DNA of 38,093 nt, from the NCBI GenBank assembly GCA_017433405.1, contig JAFRHH010000036.1:1-38093 (forward strand), read 5' to 3'. Shown piece by piece: positions 13,261 to 35,310 of this stretch (position 1 is the first letter of the stretch; each line of letters opens with the position of its first letter). A program made the position numbers and the translations under genes. Under the pieces are notes generated by a model. That model worked only from the letters and a program-made list of their open reading frames with translations. It was not told where the DNA came from and made no database searches. The stretch comes from Clostridia bacterium. GTDB lineage: Bacteria > Bacillota > Clostridia > Christensenellales > Aristaeellaceae.

Positions 13261-13332
13261 CGCGATTCGCGTCAGCGTGAGCGGTAACAAAATCGTCATC
13301 CGGCAGACTTGAACTGTTGTTCACAGAGGAGG
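13261..13332 (+). repeat. Dispersed leader element, copy A (full length)
   Basis: It contains the AGCGGTAACAAAATCGTCAT and CATCCGG blocks, CAGACT, the palindrome TGAAC-TGTT-GTTCA (13310-13323) and AGAGGAGG (13325-13332). The last block is the ribosome binding site of the kinase, 8 nt before its ATG. The upstream half matches copy C nearly base for base. Confidence 0.85.
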
Positions 13333-13340
13333 AAAACCGT

Positions 13341-14285
13341 ATGGAAGCATCCCAAAGCGTTCCCTATGTGCTGGGTATCGACAGCGGCGGAACCCGCTAC
13401 CGGGTTCGGGCGGTCAGCCTGGATGACCAGCCGCTGGGAGAATACGAAGGCCTTCCCTGTTCCCATGACCGGGTACCGGAGGCGGAGGTCGCCCGGCGCC
13501 TGACAGCCAATATTCAGGGCTGTCTCGTTTCATTCGGCGGAAAGGCCGGGGACTGCCGCGCCATCGTCTGCGGAACCACGGGCTGCGACAGCCCGGAGGA
13601 CGCCGCCTTTCTTCAGGATCTTTACCGGCGCCAGCTGCCGGACTTTCGCTGCCCCATGACCCTGATGAGCGACGTGGAACTGGCCTTCCGGATGATCTGC
13701 GGCAATCTCGGCCTGCTGATCCTTTCCGGGACCGGGTCCATCTGCTACGGAAAGAACAGCCGGGACGAAAGCGCCCGGGTCGGCGGCTGGCCGGTCAGCA
13801 TCTTCGGGGATGAGGGCTCCGGTCGGTATATCGACGCCCTGGCCCTTCAGTATTACAGCCGCTGGCTGGACGGATGCCGGGAGGATGCCGAGCTGCTCCG
13901 GGTGATCCGGGAAAAAACCGGCATTCAAAGCCGGAAGGAGCTGATAGACTACGCCGGCGCCATCGCGCTGGGGCGCGTTCCCGCCCCCAACCTCGGCGCG
14001 GAGGTCACCCGGGCGGCCAACGAGGGCAACCCCTGGGCCCAGACCATTCTGCGGGACGCGGCGTCCCGGCTGGCCTCCCTGGCGGAGGACGCGATTCAGC
14101 GGCTGCAGCTGAACCGGGAGGAAACGATTCCCGTCGGCCTCTGGGGCAGCGTTCTCCAGCATTCCGGGCCGGTTCGTGGCGCCCTGACGAGGGCGCTGAA
14201 GCGGGAATATCCGCAGATTGAGATTCTGCCCGTGGTCACCGATGCCGCCCAGGGGGCCGTCCGGATCGCCCTGGATTCCCTCTGA
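13341..14285 (+). CDS. BadF/BadG-family ATPase, N-acetylglucosamine kinase-like
   Basis: This 314-residue sugar-kinase-fold (ASKHA) protein has the BadF/BadG/BcrA/BcrD domain used by N-acetylglucosamine kinases. The phosphate-1 motif is GIDSGGTRYR (12-21); later motifs are CGTTGCDSPED, ILSGTGSICYGKN and GGWPVSIFGDEGSGRYI. The alternative in the same family is an activator ATPase of 2-hydroxyacyl-CoA dehydratase, but that has Fe-S cysteines in CxGxG motifs which are absent here, so a sugar kinase is preferred. The start is ATG 13341 with AGAGGAGG from leader copy A; the in-frame ATG at 13317 lies within the element. It is transcribed alone. Confidence 0.82.
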   Translation: MEASQSVPYVLGIDSGGTRYRVRAVSLDDQPLGEYEGLPCSHDRVPEAEVARRLTANIQGCLVSFGGKAGDCRAIVCGTTGCDSPEDAAFLQDLYRRQLPDFRCPMTLMSDVELAFRMICGNLGLLILSGTGSICYGKNSRDESARVGGWPVSIFGDEGSGRYIDALALQYYSRWLDGCREDAELLRVIREKTGIQSRKELIDYAGAIALGRVPAPNLGAEVTRAANEGNPWAQTILRDAASRLASLAEDAIQRLQLNREETIPVGLWGSVLQHSGPVRGALTRALKREYPQIEILPVVTDAAQGAVRIALDSL

Positions 14286-14298
14286 TCATCCCCGGCGC

Positions 14299-14314
14299 CG
14301 GAGGCGAACCTCCG
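14299..14314. terminator. Short hairpin between convergent genes
   Basis: CGGAGG and CCTCCG form a 6-bp stem with a 4-nt loop in the 46-bp gap between the convergent kinase and pheA genes. There is no T run on either side, so it is only a weak terminator candidate. Confidence 0.3.
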
Positions 14315-32928: not shown

Positions 32929-33364
32929 TTCACACCTCATCCGTCTGTCGGATCCGGGGACTTCCGGGCCATTTCATCAATCCCGAAATCCCTTGAAAAA
33001 TCAAACGTTTCGAACCGATTTATTATACCACTTTTTGCATCTTTTGGAAAGCGTTTTTCAACTCCCGAAGCGCCCTTCGAAAGCCAATTCATCGAAAATA
33101 GGCCGCCGGAAAACGCACCGTTTCCTCCCCTCCTGCCATTGCCGGCAGGCGCCCGCGGTTCGCCGCGCCTGGCGGTAAATACCCCGTGGCGGGCCTTTCA
33201 CCCGCAAGAATCGCACCATGCCCGGCGCACGAAAAAGCCGGGCAGCTTCAACAGCCGTCCGGTTTTTATGTTTCCTGCGAAGTTTCGCGCTTGCCCGGTG
33301 TCGTTCCGCAGCTTCAGAAATCAAATTCGCCTTCGGTCTCCTCTTCTGCTGCCTCCGGCAAGGC
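32929..33364. other. 436-bp intergenic region between gyrB and the binding-protein gene
   Basis: No gene is supported here. It holds the gyrB promoter (33022-33050), several GC-rich inverted repeats (GCCCGGC at 33220-33226 with GCCGGGC at 33237-33243; AGGCGC...GCGCCT near 33145-33175) and, next to the binding-protein gene, a second copy of that gene's acidic C-terminal codons (33314-33364). A 105-codon minus-strand frame across it is rich in Arg, lacks a ribosome binding site and is regarded as spurious. Confidence 0.6.
33022..33050 (-). promoter_or_regulatory. Promoter of gyrB-gyrA
   Basis: On the minus strand TTTCCA and a consensus TATAAT are separated by 17 bp, about 90 bp upstream of gyrB. 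Confidence 0.7.
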
Positions 33365-35260
33365 TCAGATGCCAAATTCGTCTTCCGCTTCCCCTTCCGT
33401 CTCCTCCGGCGCGTAGTCGCTCAGATAAGCGGAGGTAATCACGGTGGACCAGGAGGAAGTCGTTCCGGGATGATAATTCCGCAGGGCCTGAATATGGAAA
33501 TCCAGATAGGCGTTGCTGTACAGCGGAATCTCCGTGGCGATGGCCGTCCGGTATTCCTGCATGGCGATCCACTTCCGGCAGTACCCCGCCGTGTCCCCCG
33601 GCTCCGTCTGCCGCAGCTCCCGGCACAGCTTCGCCAGGTTCGCATCGTCGATTCCGTTCAGCCGGTTCACCGTGCCGTCCGCGCTGTAGTCCGTGGAAGG
33701 ATCGAAAACATCCCCGAAATTGGTTCCCAGCAGGATCATGTCGCAGTCCCGCTCCGCCTGTCCATAATATTTTTGCAGCAGGGTCTCCATGGGCACCTGC
33801 TCCACAGACAGCCCCACGCCGATGGCGTTCAGATGGTCCGTAAATGCCGCCTGCAGGGCCGTCCCGACCGCGTTGTTTTCCGGATAGATCAGGCTCAGCG
33901 TCAGGGGAACCAGGGTGCCGCCCGCGTTCGAATACCGCAGGCTGTCCGTCTCCGGATTGAAGGCCTGTCCCTGGGCGTTCAGGTTCCAGCCGGCCTCCTC
34001 CAGCAGCTTTGCCGCTTCCTCCGTCGAGAAATCGTACCGGGTCAGCCCCTCCAGATTCAGTCCCTCCCAGGCCTTCGCCTCCTCCTCATCGTTGGGAATC
34101 AGCGTGCCGTTGGCCATCAGGAACATCCACTGTCCCACGCCGTAATAGCCGTACACCTCCGTACCGTAGGCGCCCAGATACTGATCGATCAGCGCCTGCT
34201 GGTTCATGCAGCGGTTCAGCGCCTGCCGCACCCGCACGTCAGCCGTCGGGCCCTTCTCCGCGCAGAAGCTGATAAACCCGAGTCCGTTCCGGCTGTAGGC
34301 CTGCATGCCGAAATCCCCGGACTGGGCCAGGCGGATGCCGTTGGCAATCTGATCCCGACGGGCGCAGCGCACCAGCAGGTCGATCGCTCCCTGACTCAGC
34401 TCGCTCACCGCCAGATCGGAATTCACATACCGGATATCGATGGCGGGAATCTGGACGGAGGTTCCGTCCGCGTTGCCCAGATAATGCTCATTCCGCACCA
34501 GCGACACCTTGTTCTCCTCATAGCCGGTCAGCGCGTAGGGGCCGCTGGTGACCGCAGGATGACTCATATACCCGGTCGCCGGATCCAGCAGCGTCTTCTT
34601 CAGAAGCTCCGCACTGAAGTTCCCGCTCAGATAGACGCCCTCTCCGTCGTCTCTGACCTCGCATCCGGGCGCCAGCACGCTGATGGGCATCGGAATGACA
34701 TCCAGCGCCTTCAGCTCATAGAAATAGGGGGAGTAGGACGGATCCAGCGTCAGCGACAGCATATAGTCGCCCATCACCCGAACACCGGAAAGCACCTTTG
34801 CGCTTCCCTCGCTATAAGCCGCGGCGCCCACCAGATGGCTGGCGCTCCGCCGAACCCCGGCCGCCTCCCGCAGCTCCGGGGAAAGCTGGAGCAGCAGGCT
34901 GAAGGCATAGTCCCGGGCGGTAATCGGCGTCCCGTCGTTATAAGCCATCTCCCGGTTCAGCGCGAAGGTATAGGTTCCGCCCTCCTGCTGCAGCGTAGCC
35001 GCGCTGACGACCCGGGTATCAAACTCATAAATGCCCGTATCCGGATTCCACGTCACCGGGCTGTAGTCATAGATCAGCCGGCGGACATCCTGATCGCTGA
35101 CGTTGTTTCCCAGAATCTCCGAAAAGAAATTGCCGTTGAAGGGGGTCGTCACCCCAACCGTCAGCTTGTCATACTTTCCTTCCGCCGCCTGCTCCGCCAG
35201 GGCGGACAGGCTTCCCAGCGCGAGCACCGCGGCCAGGATCACTGCCAGGATTTTCTTCAT
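33365..35260 (-). CDS. Oligopeptide/nickel-type ABC substrate-binding protein (SBP_bac_5)
   Basis: This 631-residue exported binding protein has the family-5 fold. A signal peptide (MKKILAVILAAVLALGSLSALAEQ) is followed by KLTVGVTTPFNGNFFSEI, the YTFALNREMAYNDGTPITARDYAFSL segment typical of the family, DVRVRQALNRCMNQQALIDQYL and the late DMILLGTNFGDVFDPSTDYS segment. It probably binds peptides. There is no lipobox cysteine, so it is not a lipoprotein. The start is ATG 35260 with AAGGAG of leader copy H; the longer frame to 35311 is leader. No permease or ATPase gene follows, so its transporter is encoded elsewhere. The C-terminus is acidic (EETEGEAEDEFGI). Confidence 0.9.
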   Translation of the reverse strand: MKKILAVILAAVLALGSLSALAEQAAEGKYDKLTVGVTTPFNGNFFSEILGNNVSDQDVRRLIYDYSPVTWNPDTGIYEFDTRVVSAATLQQEGGTYTFALNREMAYNDGTPITARDYAFSLLLQLSPELREAAGVRRSASHLVGAAAYSEGSAKVLSGVRVMGDYMLSLTLDPSYSPYFYELKALDVIPMPISVLAPGCEVRDDGEGVYLSGNFSAELLKKTLLDPATGYMSHPAVTSGPYALTGYEENKVSLVRNEHYLGNADGTSVQIPAIDIRYVNSDLAVSELSQGAIDLLVRCARRDQIANGIRLAQSGDFGMQAYSRNGLGFISFCAEKGPTADVRVRQALNRCMNQQALIDQYLGAYGTEVYGYYGVGQWMFLMANGTLIPNDEEEAKAWEGLNLEGLTRYDFSTEEAAKLLEEAGWNLNAQGQAFNPETDSLRYSNAGGTLVPLTLSLIYPENNAVGTALQAAFTDHLNAIGVGLSVEQVPMETLLQKYYGQAERDCDMILLGTNFGDVFDPSTDYSADGTVNRLNGIDDANLAKLCRELRQTEPGDTAGYCRKWIAMQEYRTAIATEIPLYSNAYLDFHIQALRNYHPGTTSSWSTVITSAYLSDYAPEETEGEAEDEFGI

Positions 35261-35268
35261 CTTTCTGA

Positions 35269-35310
35269 TCTCCTTCGTGAACGTCGGTTCTCCTCTGTCC
35301 CATCTGTTCA
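35269..35310 (-). repeat. Dispersed leader element, copy H (rearranged)
   Basis: In sense orientation: GAACAGATGGGACAGAGGAG followed by AACCGACGTTCACGAAGGAG. The right arm GTTCAC and ribosome binding site remain, but the left arm is replaced by a second partial GGACAGAGGAG unit. It provides the AAGGAG of the binding-protein gene, 9 nt before its ATG. Confidence 0.65.

Follow-up and report, generated by a model that had tools for sequence, protein, structure and literature searches.

A short hairpin-forming repeat that probably inserts behind the GGAG of Shine-Dalgarno sequences in a Clostridia genome

How does one and the same sequence come to stand, with its own ribosome binding site, in front of genes that are unrelated to each other? 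The question is raised by a stretch of 38,093 nucleotides from a Clostridia bacterium of the family Aristaeellaceae (GenBank assembly GCA_017433405.1, contig JAFRHH010000036.1), here called the window, in which copies of a short element with a palindrome and a purine-rich end are scattered over both strands. A preliminary description of these copies left two answers side by side: a mobile palindromic unit by which translation initiation signals are delivered, or a shared post-transcriptional control site. We consider it probable that the element is a non-autonomous, hairpin-forming mobile unit of about 94 nt, with a short form of about 37 nt, which inserts 3' of the tetranucleotide GGAG. This reading builds on what is seen directly, i.e., the dispersal of the element, its GGAG flanks, tandems joined by GGAG, a few empty sites with a single GGAG, and a hairpin with compensatory changes.

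The source assembly has a size of 2.53 Mb in 92 contigs and is 89% complete; the window is its contig C9 and has a G+C content of 60%. In the window, GGACAGAATGRCAGAC is matched four times at up to 3 mismatches when 0.50 matches are expected, and AGCGGTAACAAAATCGTCAT three times when 0.00 are expected, so that the motifs of the preliminary description are recovered in their places and above chance. The palindrome pattern alone, also at up to 3 mismatches, gives 18 matches versus 10.3 expected, a modest excess that is weak evidence. The spread of the element is larger than had been claimed: genome-wide, GGACAGAATGRCAGAC has 82 matches at up to 1 mismatch (37 forward, 45 reverse) and the loose pattern CAGACGTGAACNNNNGTTCAC has 260 at up to 2 mismatches (113 forward, 147 reverse), when both reversed patterns have 0. 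A profile hidden Markov model (HMM) was built from 24 full copies, and copies were called by nhmmer in a sample of 438,093 bases, made up of the window plus 20 segments of 20 kb each, from contigs chosen among those known to hold matches. At E values up to 0.02 there are 69 copies, 59 of which reach the 3' end and 7 of which lack the 3' part; among the 59, 30 are full and 17 begin at model position 48 or later. Extrapolated from this sample, the whole genome would hold about 400 copies. When the 14-mers of the sample are ranked by frequency, the 60 listed at the top all come from the element. The element reaches 24 occurrences in these 438 kb, when the most frequent 14-mer in a 900 kb sample of G009 has 7; among 24 congeners compared at the DNA level, G009 is the nearest (88% over gyrBA).

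The full unit consists of GGAG, a long hairpin, GTCATCC, a spacer, the palindrome GTGAAC-N4-GTTCAC, and AGAGGAG. In the consensus, GGAG is followed by the body ACAGATTTTGTCCGCGAACGCGTNAGCGAAGCGGTTACAAAATCGTCATCCGGACAGAATGGCAGACGTGAACTGACGTTCACAGAGGAG, which starts with ACAGA and finishes with AGAGGAG. The palindrome (hairpin 2) and AGAGGAG had been noted before and are present, but the unit extends further than first described, and the stronger hairpin lies upstream of the palindrome. This hairpin 1 spans GATTTTGT to ACAAAATC and includes CCGC/GCGG and, further in, CGC/GCG. In each of four full copies folded, GGAGAC (GGGGAC in one) is paired to GTCATCC with an A bulged out, and the fold z values are -3.6, -3.8, -3.2, and -1.4; for two shorter window copies the structure is not significant (z 0.6 and -1.5), and hairpin 2 is unformed in several folds of this set of full and shorter copies. 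The four loop bases do not vary freely, as had been supposed, since loops with T in the first position, such as TGCC and TGAC, predominate in the genome-wide match listing. Copies that lie close together in the sample are mostly head-to-tail tandems with a period of 90-91 nt, in which AGAGGAG is fused directly to ACAGATTTTG; one pair, about 110 nt apart, has opposite orientations (L037:10398-10639).

The left flanks point to a fixed target. In a set of 55 full copies, reduced to 48 when tandems are removed, the base before the body is G in 48/48, the next one outward is A in 42/48, and positions -3 and -4 are G in 40/48 and 33/48, respectively; at -5 or beyond there is no consensus. The same loci can be inspected in G009. 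Among 105 distinct copies of the own genome, 62 have a same-strand gene within 60 nt, and for 27 of these an orthologue with at least 62% identity is present in the 900 kb fetched from G009. The 85 nt before the start codon are free of the element in 26 of the 27 compared orthologues, and genome-wide searches of G009 yield only the pair shared with the own genome. This pair resides in a block of about 1.6 kb with 98-100% identity (L041, reverse complement, 9008-10600), and because the identity around it is mostly 80-92%, the shared copy was probably exchanged recently by recombination. When own flanks are joined without the body, they align to empty G009 sites that have one GGAG. The clearest cases are q17 (L064; protein identity 90%) and q21 (L031:9751; 74%), at which the spacing between Shine-Dalgarno (SD) sequence and start codon is identical in the two species, 5 nt and 10 nt, respectively. 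Compatible with a single-GGAG empty site are also q27, q0, which follows an older degenerate copy, and q55, which is gyrA and has GGGG in the own genome and GAGG in G009. The spacing agrees within 1 nt in 9 of 13 pairs, with a mean difference of 1.5 nt (permutation p 0.024; p 0.009 for 14 pairs, with the shared copy included). A copy in G043, before a gene that we take to encode a deformylase, accords by eye with the same pattern of insertion.

The distribution among relatives was obtained by searching 45 genomes of the genus, the own one included, with one model (R1) and with another (R2) built from copies in sister species. R1 gives at least 94 matches in the own genome, 12 in G047, 8 in G056, 2 in G009, 1 in G043, 1 in G018, and none in 39 genomes; R2 gives at least 92 in the own genome, 20 in G047, 14 in G056, 1 in G043, 1 in G009, and none in 40. 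In G047 and G056 alike, one R2 match is a place counted a second time on its opposite strand, which leaves about 19 and 13. Among 44 congeners, the element is thus absent or rare, except in the two sister species G047 and G056. Their copies are diverged, and mostly retain GGAGAC, hairpin 1, GTCATCC, and the GAGGAG end; no insertion locus is common to them and the 72 own copies compared. A further model (R3) finds the element in the own genome only among the best 14 candidates per genome in 297 genomes of the order, a weak result, the inclusion of G047 and G056 in that draw being uncertain. An exact-pattern scan of GTDB r220 contigs, from which near genomes were possibly left out, gives one match, on a Streptomyces contig, which is taken as chance. 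The first answer of the preliminary description, the mobile palindromic unit, is favored by the small number of species with amplification, by the GGAG flanks and the empty sites with a single GGAG, and by the lack of a shared locus among those compared.

If GGAG is the target, the position of the element relative to genes should reflect where GGAG occurs. Genes were called with a purpose-written, codon-based caller, which gives 395 genes in the own sample; 14 of 20 window open reading frames scanned have Pfam matches, all on the strand given by the caller. When the 6 of the 59 3'-complete copies that are inner tandem members are set aside, 53 terminal copies remain, and in 47 of these the next gene is on the same strand (sense), while 24 are followed by a start codon at a distance of 2-15 nt from the 3' end. 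These numbers become 14/53 and 0/53 when the copies are flipped; for intergenic positions and strands drawn at random, the values are 58% and 5%. Two of the 6 exceptions to the sense rule overlap a sense gene, and one precedes a transposase-like gene considered below. The earlier observation of sense orientation and enrichment before start codons therefore holds in the sample, orientation being far from random. The AGAGGAG end has an identity of 0.958 in the 24 near-start copies versus 0.872 in the 29 others, in line with its use as an SD sequence.

Now consider 1121 intergenic GGAG sites in element-free stretches of G009. They are sense to the next gene in 78% of the cases; the fraction located 2-15 nt ahead of a start is 34%, compared with 60% for AGGAG, 69% for GAGGAG, 4% for the control GGTC, and 0.6% for CTCC. 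The sense orientation and the pre-start position of the element thus follow largely from the fact that GGAG in intergenic DNA is mostly a sense-strand SD sequence. Compared with this null, the own species has p 0.056 for starts (24/53 versus 34%) and p 0.039 for sense orientation (47/53 versus 78%), so that GGAG targeting nearly suffices there. In the sister species, a start lies 2-15 nt past the end of the element at 17 of 19 loci examined, and of 24 matches of the sister HMM, which we read as 22 distinct places, 19 have a start on the same strand no more than 15 nt away. With 19/22 near starts the sisters are far above the plain GGAG null (p 5.7e-7), and therefore a longer target or selection is needed for them; their left flanks are purine-rich past GGAG, at -5 in 18/20 and at -6 in 18/20.

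Conservation of the hairpin was evaluated in a cross-species alignment of 24 rows (8 own, 1 from G009, 15 sister) against 500 shuffles, which are blind to relatedness. The main stem has double changes in 5 of 12 pairs. Over the whole structure there are 28 double-change cells versus 11.3 in the shuffles (reached in 0/500), distributed over 8 pairs versus 5.3 (13/500), and versions of the structure slid along the alignment have at most 11 cells. The 15 sister copies by themselves give 16 cells versus 6.9 (0/500) and 5 pairs versus 3.9 (116/500). The long hairpin thus shows compensatory changes between species, and the palindrome does not. Selection on the GTGAAC/GTTCAC arms, which had been suggested from the window copies, is not borne out, in that 30 own copies have no excess of compensatory changes (2 cells versus 2.0 in the shuffles) and the arm cells of hairpin 2 are paired in 61% of the 24-row alignment. 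The core GAAC-N4-GTTC resembles the LexA boxes of Gram-positive bacteria; the palindrome as an operator was set aside, as it adjoins the SD sequences of many unrelated genes and its arms are not kept in the sisters.

In the insertion that we propose, the body would enter between the GGAG of an SD sequence and the old spacer, so that the left GGAG would be the old SD sequence and the right AGAGGAG would supply a new GGAG. Because the body ends in AGAGGAG, the downstream gene keeps an SD sequence at nearly the old distance from its start. Transfer might occur as a folded single strand through a trans-acting enzyme, and GGAG might be recognized by pairing with the C(A)TCC of the element at the hairpin foot, a pairing which in RNA would also mask the old SD sequence. 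From this follows a tentative extension, which we regard as possible rather than likely: an anti-SD-like guide (C-A-TCC in GTCATCC) would find the ribosome binding site, the old SD sequence would be folded into the foot of the hairpin, and AGAGGAG would take over translation, i.e., the SD sequence would be swapped at little cost to the host. In 39 own copies, the guide has an identity of 0.942 and the target 0.846.

Several observations weigh against insertion at GGAG or against the guide. The asymmetry between guide and target is absent in 20 sister copies (0.900 versus 0.938), and no mobilizing enzyme was identified. Only two empty sites are clean, with a few more compatible; divergence precludes an alignment for most leaders of G009, and upstream the alignments of q7 and q22 are poor. 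In q7 and q28 the spacing differs by 5 nt, in q22 by 3 nt, and the rank correlation of spacings alone has p 0.09 over the 13 pairs. The copy at C54:5814 of the own genome sits upstream of a retained native SD sequence. No start is called 2-15 nt downstream of 29 of the 53 terminal copies, and the gene caller favors SD-like starts, equally in data and null. The shuffles ignore relatedness, and further pair types do not exceed them, with 18 versus 17.4 in the 24 rows (236/500) and 9 versus 10.5 in the sister copies (485/500).

The hairpin, the high copy number, and the lack of an own gene are also properties of the repetitive extragenic palindromic (REP) sequences, including BIMEs and REPINs, that are mobilized by REP-associated tyrosine transposases (RAYT, TnpA_REP). 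That the element is a classical REP of this kind is unlikely, even if the own genome does have one Y1_Tnp gene. This gene (G000:C5:805-1548; L037, minus strand) is RAYT-like and encodes 247 aa, with 58.5 bits against NCBIfam REP_Tyr_transpos, below the 80-bit cut-off, and its upstream region has a full element copy at a distance of about 150 bp. Its homologues do not accompany the element: G056, with its 14 R2 matches, lacks a Y1_Tnp match in an assembly that is 77% complete, G009 has four Y1_Tnp matches over the cut-off and only the exchanged pair, and the closest homologues (52-58%) belong to six species without R1 matches. A clear element match was found at 1 of 30 RAYT loci fetched, the own one, and on one side only, so the transposase gene is not flanked by repeats. 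The element also has no 5' GTAG, the tetranucleotide being missing at the palindrome foot in the consensus GGAGACAGATTTTG...CAAAATCGTCATCC, and it differs from REPs in forming mostly head-to-tail tandems and in preferring SD sites in sense orientation. As a dedicated enzyme the RAYT was therefore a weak candidate, the distribution of its gene not tracking the element. Further upstream of the gene there is another repeat-like motif, GGACGTATCTT, CAGGGGGA.

Somewhat more doubtful still is a shared cis-regulatory leader RNA, a regulon held by selection before unrelated genes and bound by a protein, a small RNA, or the ribosome. Such a leader would be expected in sense orientation close to start codons, with a hairpin that has compensatory changes and an AGAGGAG that is better kept where it serves as an SD sequence, and the sister placement above the plain GGAG null would be natural. 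It would, on the other hand, be expected at orthologous loci, when 26 of 27 compared G009 orthologues are element-free and no locus is shared between the sister copies and the own copies compared. Some copies lie in coding sequence, and the bias in the own species is nearly predicted by GGAG targeting. The SD sequences of 24 element genes are not significantly more accessible than those of 200 control genes (p 0.18); their start regions are a little more open (p 0.014). The shared post-transcriptional control site of the preliminary description is accordingly not sustained by the comparison with G009, and the hairpin may have a regulatory effect.

There is little chance that the element spreads by reverse transcription, or by gene conversion between leaders, and not by DNA transposition. 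A fixed 3' end with variable 5' ends would suit such a spread, and the block shared with G009 demonstrates that recombination moved one locus between species. Against it stand the single-GGAG empty sites and the 7 copies without the 3' part. Three of the 17 short copies, furthermore, begin at an internal ACAG that is immediately preceded by GGAG or GGGG; others have CCGG or similar before ACAG, as within the full form, and some start elsewhere. Chance similarity or composition, for which only the modest excess of the bare palindrome speaks, is in practice refuted by 82 and 260 matches versus none for the reversed patterns.

The copies that can be placed in the window are collected in Table 1.

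Table 1. Copies of the element in the window, with E values from nhmmer.
Copy	Position	Strand	Properties
A	13259..13331	+	model 17-96; E 4.4e-14; AGAGGAG ends 9 nt before ATG 13341
B	15634..15685	+	model 46-96; E 3.9e-9; AGAGGAG 9 nt before ATG 15695
C	22220..22281	-	model 35-96; E 2.4e-16; AGAGGAG 26 nt before start of HlyD-like gene
D, short form	25276..25315	-	E 9.8e-7; HlyD-like gene (PF13437 for open reading frame 24195-25406)
E, full form	28081..28173	-	E 1.3e-19; 5' leader of ATP-binding cassette (ABC) transporter ATPase gene (PF00005)
E, second, degenerate	28035..28067	-	exact palindrome; E only 0.23
F, short form	28272..28316	-	E 1.5e-8; overlaps gyrA 28286-30907 (PF00521)
G, short form	30916..30958	-	E 2.2e-5; between gyrB and gyrA; empty site in G009
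H, as reported	35270..35292	-	doubtful; absent from nhmmer list at E up to 1
Extra, weak	5365..5399	+	E 0.018; between convergent genes; absent from preliminary description

Nine copies at eight loci had been reported, and of these A, B, C, D, the full copy E, F, and G are all detected by the HMM (E 1.3e-19 to 2.2e-5), when the second copy at E is weak and H is unmatched. The proposal that AGAGGAG or AAGGAG is the likely ribosome binding site fits A and B, where the next genes encode a protein of the BadF/BcrA-type ATPase family (PF01869) and a PDZ domain protein (PF13180), respectively. It fits G as well, whose AGAGGAG is likely the SD sequence of gyrA, and the degenerate copy at E, whose AAGGAG is likely that of the ABC gene; the full copy E is downstream of a promoter-like sequence conserved in G009. 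The gene after copy C is HlyD-like (PF13437), and no counterpart of this copy is seen in G009. The proposal fails for D, which probably lies in frame within the N-terminal coding region of its HlyD-like gene; upstream of it, GGAGG, 8 nt, and GTG are conserved in the own genome and G009. Copy F encodes the final residues of GyrA and the TAA stop, which is within the palindrome loop, and since it supplies C-terminal residues and stop, the tail of GyrA is unlike that of G009. Neither D nor F is thus a leader. At the doubtful H, the corresponding place in the G009 alignment reads AAGGAGG, so that the AAGGAG of this copy may be native.

Other repeats occur in the same DNA. A second one, AGGGGGACGGTTC, is present in several copies upstream of a solute-binding protein gene (window 35355-35464), and GGGGACGGTTC has 14 occurrences, counted over both strands, in the 438 kb sample. 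A short tandem repeat of TTTACCATACCAGGGC type with a period of 16-17 nt is found at 17975-18074, and short repeats of CCGCCGTTT type in 9 nt steps at 36076-36236, inside a gene with MBG/MucBP domains (35580-38021).

How, then, does the element relate to known mobile repeats? Classical miniature inverted-repeat transposable elements, derived from DDE transposons, have terminal inverted repeats and a target-site duplication. The ends of the element, ACAGA... and ...AGAGGAG, are by eye not inverted repeats, and its flanking repeat GGAG belongs to the element at the right end. Closer in outline are the IS200/IS605 transposons, which, as summarized in the cited sources, insert as single strands beside a tetranucleotide that a guide sequence selects (PMC8266576; for the guide concept also PMC5934647). 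These and their non-autonomous derivatives resemble the element, to the extent that those sources describe them, in entering 3' of a short, fixed sequence with one orientation, in having hairpins close to their ends, and in a target that may be recognized through base pairing; the GGAG on the left and the single GGAG at the clearest empty sites agree with this scheme. Elements of this type are moved by a Y1 HUH transposase that acts on single strands, for which the own genome has one candidate gene, with an unfavorable distribution. The element differs in having no gene inside, GGAG at both ends, and a putative guide at the 3' foot of the hairpin instead of 5' of it. The CGTC-tagged REPs, among them some rickettsial palindromic elements, are outlined in PMC3733652 as carrying CGTC at one end of a stem of 8-9 bp with a loop of 4-5 bp, mainly in head-to-head dimers, with some copies inside genes and, in that outline, no dedicated transposase known. 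Most own rows likewise have a hairpin with CGTC at one foot, and some copies are inside genes; the sister rows have CGTC in 8/15 and AGTC in 5/15. Unlike in these REPs as outlined there, CGTC is at the 3' foot with its GTC paired in the folds, the stem is longer than 8-9 bp, and the copies are head-to-tail and mainly sense leaders. The pneumococcal BOX, RUP, and SPRITE repeats, reported in the material cited to be overrepresented between convergent genes (PMC3049150), are small, interspersed, and non-autonomous like the element, which differs from that account in its preference for start codons. An Rfam scan of the window at gathering score has one match, a tRNA, and none on the element. In the titles and abstracts of the literature searched, including that on IS200/IS605 guides, no description was found of an element that targets or restores SD sequences. 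We file the element as a variant within the small non-autonomous palindromic mobile elements, with an SD target that was not found described in the searches made.

Small bacterial repeats are usually located away from translation starts. The present element has colonized start sites, that of gyrA included, with the SD sequence as its address and a replacement for it carried along, and 24 near-start copies among 395 called genes of the sample mean that the start region has been rewritten in about 6% of the genes. Such an element would illustrate, from nature, how selfish DNA is made tolerable by restoring what its insertion interrupts, and it offers a compact system for studying how a tetranucleotide target is read.

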